A DNA stretch of 33,580 nt, taken from positions 1 to 33,580 of the IMG/VR virus record IMGVR_UViG_3300044695_002617; one strand, given 5' to 3'. Shown here piece by piece: positions 1 to 33,580 of this stretch. The position numbers were made by a program, and so were the translations under genes. The notes under the pieces are model-generated. The model saw only the letters and a list, made by a program, of their open reading frames with translations, had not been told where the DNA came from and made no database searches. Numbering within the stretch: position 1 is the stretch's first letter; every line of letters starts with the position of its first letter. Source of the DNA: a virus.

Positions 1-127
1 TTTTGAATTGCATTTCCAGACTTGAAATTCTTTTTATCTCTTGGGTCTCTTGTGCCACCAATTGCTTCAACACCATACGGAGGATCGGTGACCATTAAAA
101 CTGCCTTCTTGCCATCCATCAGTCTTG
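1..127. repeat. Terminal direct repeat, left copy
   Basis: These 127 bases are identical to positions 33454-33580. A gene on the minus strand continues in frame across the joined copies, so the repeat most likely marks overlapping ends of a circular assembly. A length of exactly 127 matches a common maximum assembler k-mer size, which favours an assembly overlap over a biological terminal repeat. The non-redundant length is then about 33,453 bp. Confidence 0.93.
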
Positions 128-20850: not shown

Positions 20851-22815
20851 TTATACTTCCCTTCTGGACACGTTGTTGCCAAATGCTGTGGCAGTGTTTC
20901 TGCTCATGTTGCGTTCGATCGCATATCCAAGTTCAACCAAGATGGATTTGATTTCCTTGGTGCCACTGCGTCTGCCACCTGCCATGTCTGCCATTTCCTG
21001 TCTGGACAAACCACGTGATGCAAGTGAACCACCACCCAACACCCGATTGTTCAAATCCAATTGTTTCTTGGTGTTGTCTGCTGTTTCTCTGCTTGATTCT
21101 GCAATCTTCATCAGGCTGTCTTTGAAACCACCAGTGTCCTGTTGTCCTGCGTCTGCCAGTGCACCACCAGCACCAGCAGTGGTTGGTTTATATTCACGGA
21201 TGTTTTTATCTGCCAGATCACGTTGTTGTTTGGCATTTGACAAATCCTTCTGTGCATTCAACAGCAGTTTCTGTGCCTGTTCCAGTTGCGTTTGAAATTC
21301 GGTGTTGTCTGGATATAGCTTGGCATTTGCCAATGCTTGGTTGTACAACCTGCGTTGCCTTGCCACTTCACGTTCTGATGCATTCACCCTGATGTTTGCC
21401 TGCGTCTGTGCTTCATTCAATGCTTTGTATGTATCCACAGTGGATGTGCCACCAGCACCTGCCACTGCTGGTGCAGTGGATGCAACACCACCACCACGCA
21501 TCATCTTTTCAATTTCTGCCTGCCTGCGTGTGAAGTCTTCGATGCTTGGCAAATCACCAATCTTGGACATTCCTTCTGTCATTTTGTCCAGTGCATAGTT
21601 GATGCCAAAACCAGCAGTCACAGCAACAGCAATGGCAGGCAAGGTTGTCAACAATTCCTGTGCAATGGACGTGCCCATTGTCAAAATTGCCTTCATTATC
21701 ACACCTGTGACAGACACACCCACCATTGCCTTCCGCAACGTGGTGAATGCTTCAATCAAGGTGACAACACCTTTGACAATAGGTGATGTTAGAAATATGC
21801 CTGCCAGCACACCACCCACCACACTGATGGCAATTTTGATGTTGCTGAATGCCACCACAAATTTGTTGGCAACGTCTGCGACAAATTTTGGCATCACTTC
21901 CAAACCTGCCAGCATTCCTGCAAAGGTGCCAATCAAGGCATCACCTAGTGCCTTGGTGTCAAACATTTTCATCAAACCATTGGTGATGTTTTCCAACACA
22001 CCACTGGATGAAAGGTTGTTCAGTGCATCTGCAAATTGTTTGACCACTGGCACCACATACCTTAGCAACACACCACCAATTTTTATCATGGCAATGTTCC
22101 ACGCATCACTGAATGATGCCAAACCAGCACCAGCACCATCTGCCATTTCTTTGGACAGTTGACCAAATTTCTGGTTGACCAATTTTTCAACAGCAGTTAA
22201 TGCCTGATCCACACTGCCAAGGTATTGTCCACCTTTGTCAAATTTCAAACCTTCACCCATCAGTTGCTGTCTGGAAATGCCACCACGTGCTAGTGATTCA
22301 AATGCCTCACCAAACCTGCCTGATTTCAGATAACCCAAAGATGTGATGAAACTGTCCAGTGATTCTGTGGTGCCACCAAACACAGTGCCAAGTTTTTCAG
22401 CAATGGGCAGGAATCTTTCTGTGGACAATCCAAATGCTTCCAAAGTCTTGGATGCCTCACCAAGTTGTGCCTGTGTGTATATGGATGGCAGTGCCAGTTT
22501 CTGAACAAAGGAAAGTATCTGTCCTGTGCGTTGTGCACTGCCTGTGATGGCATTCAATGAACGTTGCAAGGTGTCATAGGCAACAGCAGAATCCAATGCA
22601 GTTTTTGCCAAACCAATCATGGGCAATGATGCGACAGTGGCACCAATCGCCAAACCTTTGACAGCACTTACACCTTTGCCTAAAGTGTCACCAATCTTGC
22701 CAGCACCTGCCACCAATTTCTTGCTTGCCGACAGCACCTGATCTGCACCAGCTTTATACCTGTCGGCATTCAGAATGTATTCAGTAATAACTTTGTCAAC
22801 AACCACAGATGCCAT
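20851..22815 (-). CDS. Tail tape measure protein, 654 aa
   Basis: The protein is helical and rich in Ala and Gly. The N-terminal part has the typical TMP layout: YILNADRYKAGADQVLSAS, AVAYDTLQRSLNAITGSAQ and SIYTQAQLGEASKTLEAFG. The middle holds hydrophobic helices (FSNIKIAISVVGGVLAGIFL, LTTLPAIAVAVTAGFGINYAL), as seen in TMPs that enter membranes. A coiled coil lies at about 490-560 (QTQANIRVNASEREVARQRRL). At roughly 0.15 nm per residue this predicts a tail of about 100 nm. It follows the chaperone genes by 12 bases, as in most siphophages. Confidence 0.9.
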   Translation of the reverse strand: MASVVVDKVITEYILNADRYKAGADQVLSASKKLVAGAGKIGDTLGKGVSAVKGLAIGATVASLPMIGLAKTALDSAVAYDTLQRSLNAITGSAQRTGQILSFVQKLALPSIYTQAQLGEASKTLEAFGLSTERFLPIAEKLGTVFGGTTESLDSFITSLGYLKSGRFGEAFESLARGGISRQQLMGEGLKFDKGGQYLGSVDQALTAVEKLVNQKFGQLSKEMADGAGAGLASFSDAWNIAMIKIGGVLLRYVVPVVKQFADALNNLSSSGVLENITNGLMKMFDTKALGDALIGTFAGMLAGLEVMPKFVADVANKFVVAFSNIKIAISVVGGVLAGIFLTSPIVKGVVTLIEAFTTLRKAMVGVSVTGVIMKAILTMGTSIAQELLTTLPAIAVAVTAGFGINYALDKMTEGMSKIGDLPSIEDFTRRQAEIEKMMRGGGVASTAPAVAGAGGTSTVDTYKALNEAQTQANIRVNASEREVARQRRLYNQALANAKLYPDNTEFQTQLEQAQKLLLNAQKDLSNAKQQRDLADKNIREYKPTTAGAGGALADAGQQDTGGFKDSLMKIAESSRETADNTKKQLDLNNRVLGGGSLASRGLSRQEMADMAGGRRSGTKEIKSILVELGYAIERNMSRNTATAFGNNVSRREV

Positions 22816-22827
22816 ATCTTTTCACAC

Positions 22828-23405
22828 TTACCCAACCATTATGACTTGCCTTGCAGGTGATGGACACACTTCATTCAGTGCAATGATTTGCAACACACGC
22901 AGTTGTTTGATGGGTGGCAAATCATCAAACCATTCACCATAGTTGTCCAAGGCAACCCGGCATTTGACTGCGTAATCCGGGTTGTCCTCTAGTCTTTTTT
23001 TTGGTCTACAAAAATTGCGTAATCAGATGCCTTGTTACTTGCCAATTCATCCAGTGCACGCACGACACCTGCAAAGATTGGGCACGCACGTTTGGCAATG
23101 GTCAACCATGCAAGTTCAGATTGAAACTCTTCATCCAATGCCAGCATGGACAGCATCTTCACCTGTGCCAGAATGCCCAAATTGTCTGTTGCCACGTCTT
23201 TCCACGCAGGCAGACATCTGCCACCCTGCACTGTCTTTGCCATTTCTGTTGACCATCGAACTGCTTCCGTTTCAACACGTGTGCGTTCTTCCATGTCCAC
23301 CAAGATTTTGAATCGGCAGGACACACCATCAATGATCTTGATTTCCGCAACATCTGATGGTGGTGCTGATTCTGCAAGAATTTTGTTGACCAAATCGCCA
23401 ATCAT
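22828..23405 (-). CDS. Tail assembly chaperone frameshift product (G-T type)
   Basis: A ribosome that slips -1 on the A8 run at 22995-23002 reads on past the TAG at 22989. The product has 137 residues from the zero frame, then about 55 from the -1 frame (RLEDNPDYAVKCRVAL...), ending in TAA at 22828-22830. It has 192 residues in total. The exact join is complement(22995..23405) with complement(22828..22995), with base 22995 read twice. In lambda and many siphophages such G-T products chaperone the tape measure. The location, immediately upstream of the tape measure, fits, as does the downstream hairpin. Confidence 0.85.
22953..23002 (-). promoter_or_regulatory. -1 programmed frameshift signal: slippery A-run and hairpin
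   Basis: On the minus strand the zero-frame codons CAA AAA AAA precede GAC TAG, so the heptamer A AAA AAA sits at 22995-23001 within the A8 run 22995-23002. About 10 bases downstream an exact 8-base stem CAACCCGG (22984-22977) and CCGGGTTG (22960-22953) with a 16-base loop forms a stimulatory hairpin. The -1 frame stays open for 55 codons. Confidence 0.88.
22989..23405 (-). CDS. Tail assembly chaperone, zero-frame product (G type), 138 aa
   Basis: The protein starts MIGDLVNKILAESAPP at an ATG that overlaps the preceding stop (ATGA), and ends DYAIFVDQKKD. It is helical in its second half (LGILAQVKMLSMLALDEEFQSEL). It lies between the tail tube and the tape measure, which is the usual place for the chaperone. 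Most ribosomes should end here; a smaller share slips to make the longer product. Sequence alone does not show family identity, so the assignment rests on location and frameshift signal. Confidence 0.85.
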   Translation of the reverse strand: MIGDLVNKILAESAPPSDVAEIKIIDGVSCRFKILVDMEERTRVETEAVRWSTEMAKTVQGGRCLPAWKDVATDNLGILAQVKMLSMLALDEEFQSELAWLTIAKRACPIFAGVVRALDELASNKASDYAIFVDQKKD

Positions 23406-23536
23406 TCTTTGCCTGCCTCACCATCAACTGGTGCTGGTGCATCAACTGTGGTGGTGGTTTCTTTTGCGTCTTGGCACTGGTGATTGCGGAAACCACCTGC
23501 CACTTCTTCTGTTTGTATGTTTTTGTCTTTTGCCAT
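23402..23536 (-). CDS. Small hypothetical protein, 44 aa, between tail tube and chaperone
   Basis: The frame starts MAKDKNIQTEEVAGGFRN and ends VDAPAPVDGEAGKE. It is acidic and probably disordered. A ribosome site AAGGA lies about 10 bases upstream, and the stop overlaps the chaperone start as ATGA. I recognise no family. The gene is in the native base style. Small proteins in this slot are common in siphophages and are often of unknown function. Confidence 0.68.
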   Translation of the reverse strand: MAKDKNIQTEEVAGGFRNHQCQDAKETTTTVDAPAPVDGEAGKE

Positions 23537-23572
23537 TTGTTTGGATTCCTTACAATTATTTGTTTGGTTACC

Positions 23573-24334
23573 TTACGATTTTACTACCTGTCCAAGCCCT
23601 TTGAATGAATACTGTTCAGTGATAATTCCAGATTCCGGAATGGTCAATGAAGCGGATTCAATGCTGGTGTTGCCAGTGTAGGTGCCAAGTGTCGCAACAG
23701 TAGCAACAATTTGACATAGTGTGGTGCCTGTCAAACACAGGTTCCACAACGTGTTGCCAGTGCTGGTGGTTGGCACACCACGTTGTTCCCAATCAAAATT
23801 GACCAAAATCAGGTTGTCACGTTCCACAGTGATTTCAGCACTGGTGAGCACCACAGGAAAGACCAAAACCATACCACCTGCACTGATGGAAACAGTGGTG
23901 GACAAACCTGCCAGTGATCCATTCAAAGTGTCCAAGATGCTTGTGGTGTCGGCATCAGCAATCTGCATCACACCACTGCCTGTCACCTTAGTGCCAGTTG
24001 CCTGATAGGTTTCAAATTCGTCTGCACGTCCACTGCATTCCTGTTGCGTGGTTGCCACATTGACAGACAATGAACGCACCTTGGCAAGATACAATGTGGC
24101 ACCCACTGTTGCCACAGATAGTGTCAAAGATGTTTGCCGGACACTGGTTGCTGTCCGCATGATTTCGGTTTTGGCATCAAACATCCGTTTCACTGGCACT
24201 GCTGTTGAATGTCGTTCCGCACCACCTTTGCCTTCTTCAGTGGATGCCGAAATTTTGAATGACACGTTGGTGAAATCAGCCAAGTATGCTGTGCCACCCA
24301 ATGTGTATGCTGTCAAATCACCTGCGTATTTCAT
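23573..24334 (-). CDS. Major tail tube protein
   Basis: The 253-residue product is beta-rich and begins MKYAGDLTAYTLGGTAYLADFTNVSFKIS, which fits the first strands of a tail tube protomer. Other segments (RMFDAKTEIMRTATSVRQTS, LTSAEITVERDNLILVNFDWEQRG) match the phage tail tube style. The C-terminal half shows SIESASLTIPESGIITEQYSFKG, ending in a strand. Its position after the connectors and before the chaperone and tape measure is the normal slot. Assignment is from order and composition; no direct family motif is conclusive. Confidence 0.78.
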   Translation of the reverse strand: MKYAGDLTAYTLGGTAYLADFTNVSFKISASTEEGKGGAERHSTAVPVKRMFDAKTEIMRTATSVRQTSLTLSVATVGATLYLAKVRSLSVNVATTQQECSGRADEFETYQATGTKVTGSGVMQIADADTTSILDTLNGSLAGLSTTVSISAGGMVLVFPVVLTSAEITVERDNLILVNFDWEQRGVPTTSTGNTLWNLCLTGTTLCQIVATVATLGTYTGNTSIESASLTIPESGIITEQYSFKGLGQVVKS

Positions 24335-32907: not shown

Positions 32908-33580
32908 TCAATCAACCTCGGCTCCAATCCCATCTCAGAAAGACGTTCCAAAGTCACAGCAACATATTTGGGTTCAATTTCCATCCCGTAACAAATTCTG
33001 TTGTTAATTTCTGATGCACAAATCTGTGATCCACTGCCCACAAATGGTTCAATGACAATATCATTTTCCTTTGTATGGTTCTTGTATGGAATTTCAAACA
33101 CACCTAAAGGTTTCACTGTTGGGTGCAATTTCTTTTCAACATTTTGATCTCTTGCAATTTCCCACACAGTGCTTTGATCGTATGTGCCAACCCATGTGTG
33201 TGCACCATCAACCCAACCATAAGCAATTGGTTCATGCTTGTAATGATAATCGCACCTACCAAAAACAAATTGCTCCTTCACCCACACAAGAATATGCTTT
33301 GCACCATTTAATATTTCAAGTGAATTTAACACTGGAATGGTTTCCGTGCCAGCATAAAAACAATACCAACTTGCACCTTTGGTTAAATGTGGCAACCAGC
33401 TTTTCCAACATGATTCTAAAAAATGTTGCAGTTTGATTCCAGTCAATTCATCATTTTGAATTGCATTTCCAGACTTGAAATTCTTTTTATCTCTTGGGTC
33501 TCTTGTGCCACCAATTGCTTCAACACCATACGGAGGATCGGTGACCATTAAAACTGCCTTCTTGCCATCCATCAGTCTTG
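32904..33580 (-). CDS. ParB-like / DNA methyltransferase fusion, C-terminal part (partial at the window end)
   Basis: This is the rest of the protein that starts at 707; the frame runs off the right end through the 127-base repeat. It carries the methyltransferase domain: motif IV DPPY (residue 208 of the full protein), HPTVKP (about 346-351), and the SAM-binding FVGSGS (about 373-378). The order IV before I is that of beta-class N6-adenine / N4-cytosine methyltransferases. HEPIAYGW also matches this class. Its target site is not visible. The region is AT-rich, unlike the ParB half. Confidence 0.9.
   Translation of the reverse strand, partial: RLMDGKKAVLMVTDPPYGVEAIGGTRDPRDKKNFKSGNAIQNDELTGIKLQHFLESCWKSWLPHLTKGASWYCFYAGTETIPVLNSLEILNGAKHILVWVKEQFVFGRCDYHYKHEPIAYGWVDGAHTWVGTYDQSTVWEIARDQNVEKKLHPTVKPLGVFEIPYKNHTKENDIVIEPFVGSGSQICASEINNRICYGMEIEPKYVAVTLERLSEMGLEPRLID
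33454..33580. repeat. Terminal direct repeat, right copy
   Basis: This is identical to positions 1-127. It marks the closure point of a circular assembly; see the left copy. Confidence 0.93.

Follow-up and report, generated by a model that had tools for sequence, protein, structure and literature searches.

A putative -1 ribosomal frameshift in the presumed tail assembly chaperone gene of a phage family probably infecting cyanobacteria: the slip site recurs in all 14 relatives, the downstream hairpin does not

Does the stretch between a small tail gene and the presumed tape measure gene of this phage encode anything, and if so, by which means is it translated? The sequence-only reading had proposed a complete -1 frameshift signal in a tail chaperone gene, and we have followed this proposal in the phage itself and in its relatives. 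The window (the whole stretch of DNA analysed, 33,580 bases of IMGVR_UViG_3300044695_002617) is probably a complete circular assembly, because it carries a direct terminal repeat of 127 bases (1..127 and 33454..33580). Its structural genes lie on the minus strand and comprise the terminase, the portal (PF04860, 1.8e-46), an HK97-type capsid (TIGR01554, 5e-63), the head-tail joining genes and then the tail genes. The features of the tail region are the following, all on the minus strand.

23573..24334, minus strand: presumed major tail protein, 253 aa, named from position; conserved in all relatives
23404..23538, minus strand: 44-aa ORF, its stop overlapping the G start (ATGA); an ORF of the same size is found at the same place in Synechococcus phage Sc-Yong805-2
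23405..22989, minus strand: putative G-type tail assembly chaperone ORF, 138 aa, zero frame, ATG at 23405 and TAG at 22991..22989; it has homologues and precedes the presumed tape measure gene
22995..23002, minus strand: A8 run; A8, A9, GGGAAAA or AAAAAAC stands at the matching place in 14 relatives
22828..22995, minus strand: putative T-type extension, -1 frame, 55 codons plus TAA; open frame, under purifying selection in the -1 frame
22953..22984, minus strand: predicted hairpin, CAACCCGG / 16-base loop / CCGGGTTG, from fold prediction; not conserved in relatives
20851..22815, minus strand: presumed tape measure protein, 654 aa, named from position and size; syntenic in relatives; starts 12 nt after the T stop

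The order presumed major tail protein, G/T, presumed tape measure protein is common to the relatives and to Sc-Yong805-2. It is from position, size and synteny that we take the names major tail, tape measure and chaperone; curated models do not give them, and for the proteins of the window they yielded no family match to the presumed major tail protein and none naming the tape measure neighbour. The only PHROG match of the presumed tape measure protein was phrog_4928, of unknown function, and the presumed major tail protein gave a predicted structure (pLDDT 39) too poor for a fold search. Judging from the nearest isolated relatives, the hosts of this phage family are probably cyanobacteria. 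The terminase stands at 45% to Microcystis phages, and the presumed tape measure protein at 29% to Sc-Yong805-2. Other phages with a similar portal are Mwe-Yong1, ctLpZ231 and StopSmel.

The G ORF ends with the codons CAA AAA AAA GAC TAG, as the sequence-only reading had described, and the A8 run within them (23002..22995) is the sole run of A or T of at least seven bases in the window. It contains a canonical slippery heptamer in frame, A AAA AAA (23001..22995), close to the 3' end of G. From there the -1 frame is open for exactly the 55 codons that had been proposed (22995..22831), with the translation RLEDNPDYAVKCRVALDNYGEWFDDLPPIKQLRVLQIIALNEVCPSPARQVIMVG*, and its stop TAA (22830..22828) lies 12 bases ahead of the start of the presumed tape measure gene; the predicted G-T fusion has 192 aa. 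Two figures of the earlier description had to be corrected. The apparent gap that an annotation program would leave, given as about 160 bases, amounts to 173 bases from the G stop to the tape measure start, and the interval assigned to the signal (22953-23405) ended at the hairpin, whereas the extension runs to 22828.

How much of this could be due to chance in a single genome? In-frame heptamers of the form X XXA AAZ or X XXT TTZ occur 11 times in the 9,387 codons of the window, giving a chance of about 2% for one to fall in a 15-codon overlap zone. When the residues QKK were held fixed and the synonymous codons randomised, a heptamer appeared in 35% of the trials, and because of this the window genome alone provides modest evidence for a frameshift; it is the relatives that decide. 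As to the stem, the window has 28 perfect 8-bp stems whose loops measure 3-20 bases, versus 14-39 in five shuffles, so that an 8-bp stem by itself is not above chance, while a stem starting 5-15 nt from the heptamer is an event of about 1%, by arithmetic from the stem counts of the window.

We have scanned IMG/VR with G, the G-T fusion and the presumed major tail protein, which retrieved 13 distinct contigs in which the G-T junction can be read, duplicate loci from separate scans being counted once (L001 is the same as L005 and L015). Together with the isolated phage Sc-Yong805-2 they make up a set of 14 relatives. A rescan with a wider alignment returned the same six loci, and no match was obtained with the Sc-Yong805-2 fusion as query, by tblastn of the window G against phage records, or in the scan of genome contigs, hence neither in a prophage nor in a host. 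All 14 relatives carry a canonical zero-frame heptamer close to where G ends, and a -1 extension follows it; a fusion of the two frames lacking a slippery run appeared in none (0/14). The run itself is exchanged among them: A8 is found in the window, L001, L018, L019, L021, L023, L025 and L029, A9 in L006, L007 and L009, GGGAAAA in L002, L003 and L022, and AAAAAAC in Sc-Yong805-2. The nearest relative retains the same A8 and shares CAAAAAAAAGACTAGAG with the window, even though synonymous sites are near saturation (pS 0.84 in G). Ten relatives share the window's kind of G; their extension measures 55-56 codons, and their fused product is 192 aa long wherever it was counted in full. L018, L019 and L021 have an A8 followed by a 63-codon -1 extension, and a presumed major tail protein 65-66% identical to that of the window. 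The G of L018, tested for this group, showed no BLASTP similarity to the window G, and the profile similarity between the two types is weak (probability 50); in this group G/T appears to have been exchanged or to have strongly diverged.

Substitutions were analysed in seven genomes including the window (21 pairs). Since dN/dS is not computable where pS is at or near saturation (it is then printed as 0.000), we have relied on pS and pN. In all 21 pairs the extension, read in the -1 frame, gave a pS of 0.25-0.91 versus a pN of 0.02-0.28, a pattern like that of G itself, and its changes gather at the third codon positions of that frame; no such pattern is seen in these seven genomes when the bases are taken in the zero or the +1 frame. 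The -1 frame extension is thus under strong purifying selection in the seven genomes, and so is G.

The isolated relative, Synechococcus phage Sc-Yong805-2 (OR075997; locus L011 4645..5237, i.e., OR075997.1 31644..32236), has presumed major tail and tape measure proteins with about 29-31% identity to those of the window, and keeps the same gene order. Its slip site, A AAA AAC, is in frame and leads into a -1 extension of 61 codons. A profile comparison found the extension of the window family and the -1 frame of Sc-Yong805-2 to be homologous, in a match that crosses the junction (34% over 47 columns, probability 80, E 1.3e-5). Unlike in our reading of the window, GenBank lists G and T of Sc-Yong805-2 as two separate hypothetical proteins (WNA09302/WNA09301), T as a 50-codon gene from an internal ATG, and the G-T frameshift is unannotated. 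The sequence-only reading had anticipated that annotation would miss the extension, and the GenBank record of Sc-Yong805-2 shows annotation missing this family. The PRFect paper (PMC10885494) discusses divergent chaperone genes whose parts stay separate as hypothetical proteins, and Sc-Yong805-2 looks like a case of this type.

The hairpin is a different matter. The exact 8-bp stem with a 16-base loop is where it had been described (22984..22953), with the arms CAACCCGG (22984..22977) and CCGGGTTG (22960..22953), starting exactly 10 bases past the A run. The minimum-energy fold goes further, with an outer GAGG/CCTT helix and some inner pairs, the structure then beginning 5 nt after the heptamer, and reaches -18.5 kcal/mol (z -3.2 over 50 nt). 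In a gapless alignment of eight genomes 45% of the cells were paired versus 46% in shuffles, and no pair had changed on both sides; a conserved stimulatory hairpin is therefore rejected. The nearest relative does not have the hairpin of the window. Sc-Yong805-2 has a hairpin of its own with a different sequence (z -2.5 over 75 nt), L018, L019 and L021 have downstream structures with z -2.4 to -4.1, and some other relatives have none. The signal had been called complete; its run stands, with a canonical heptamer in every relative, whereas its hairpin, stable as it is here, does not belong to what is conserved. It is a possible phage-specific stimulator, and downstream structure may help particular phages, being no fixed part of the signal of the family.

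These observations taken together point to programmed -1 ribosomal frameshifting of the lambda G/GT type in a putative tail assembly chaperone gene. Among the readings of the locus this is by far the best, with a probability of roughly 0.93. Most ribosomes would translate G to its stop, giving the 138-aa G protein, and a minority would slip back by one base with AAA AAA in the P and A sites and continue for 55 codons to give the 192-aa G-T fusion. If lambda is a guide, G would form a coat on the tape measure protein, and the T part would bring in the major tail protein. We infer the ribosomal nature of the slippage, its efficiency and the chaperone function. In E. coli A_AAA_AAA is less slippery than A_AAA_AAG (PMC5009743); the weaker slippage fits the low efficiency expected for G-T, which is not proof.

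Could the frames be joined, or T be expressed, in some other way? RNA polymerase might slip on A8 or A9, runs long enough for it, so that the number of As in the mRNA is altered and it is the transcript, rather than the ribosome, that joins the frames; some bacterial genes and IS elements use such slippage (PMC5009743). We consider it very unlikely as the explanation here, since GGGAAAA (L002, L003, L022) and the GCAAAAAAC of Sc-Yong805-2 keep the same arrangement with A runs of only 4 and 6, which fit two-tRNA slippage. It could contribute at A8 and A9 but does not easily explain these members. There is also an outside chance that what is kept within the family is the change of frame from G to T while the means drift, with long A runs (polymerase slippage possible) in some members and short ribosomal sites in others, structures coming and going, and a mechanism that may differ between close relatives.

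That T is a separate small gene, expressed from its own start with no frameshift, is how GenBank treats the counterpart in Sc-Yong805-2, and is highly improbable. No conserved start codon was found in the T frame: the first candidates are a TTG at codon 16 in the window and a GTG at codon 10 in L005, codon 16 in L006 and codon 35 in L002, none with a convincing Shine-Dalgarno sequence. A protein begun there would lack the conserved beginning of T, whereas selection acts from the slip site on and the heptamer itself is kept. Finally, errors of homopolymer length are common, and one of them, or the decay of the gene, might have split a single ORF in two. All 14 independent records repeat the frame offset, even though the run is short or different in several of them, which excludes a sequencing error, and both parts are under purifying selection, leaving this explanation with practically no probability.

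Programmed ribosomal frameshifting, the preferred reading, can be set beside two known systems. The slip site of lambda is GGGAAAG, and that of E. coli dnaX has an upstream Shine-Dalgarno-like stimulator. No dnaX-like stimulator was seen in the window, nor, by eye, any internal Shine-Dalgarno sequence ahead of the slip site. With dnaX the locus shares a slippery run of lysine codons and a stem downstream; the gene and its purpose are different, and dnaX uses A AAA AAG. Unlike lambda, the window has A AAA AAA as its heptamer, a stable hairpin near the site and no detectable similarity to known chaperone families. The likeness to lambda G/GT, in the accounts cited in the review of G-T frameshifting PMC5009743 (Levin et al., 1993; Xu et al., 2004), lies in the position just ahead of the (here presumed) tape measure gene, the heptamer near the end of G and the -1 extension and, in lambda as in other long-tailed phages considered there, in an arrangement that is conserved while the protein sequence diverges.

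As for the chaperone itself, the name given in the sequence-only reading agrees with the gene order and with weak fold matches, and finds no counterpart among known families. G, T and the fusion had no match in Pfam or PHROGs, apart from a marginal match to DUF7368 in 3 of 7 members in these family searches, and the G/T profile had none in PDB sequences. The structure model of G has a mean pLDDT of 68. Its best viral match in the fold search was an uncharacterised phage protein (E 4e-4, TM 0.64), and the weaker ones include several named tail assembly chaperones (best probability 0.82, E 0.055) and a protein named pre-tape measure frameshift protein G; the search of the PDB with the same model gave nothing significant. 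Gene order and these weak matches suggest a chaperone function. The window is an ordinary further case of the well-known G-T frameshift of long-tailed phages and leaves the general picture unchanged, in a family itself missed by annotation: the putative tail assembly chaperone and its frameshift are identified where no family model finds them and where annotation has two hypothetical proteins, or else a gap, to show. The relatives with their exchanged slip sites form a small natural series on which one could study which parts of the signal are required.

A minor feature of the junction is a repeat, GATTACGCA, which flanks the slip site on the minus strand (approximately 23017..23025 and 22968..22976) and encodes DYA twice, once in the G frame and once in the T frame; several relatives keep this repetition as (D/N)YA.
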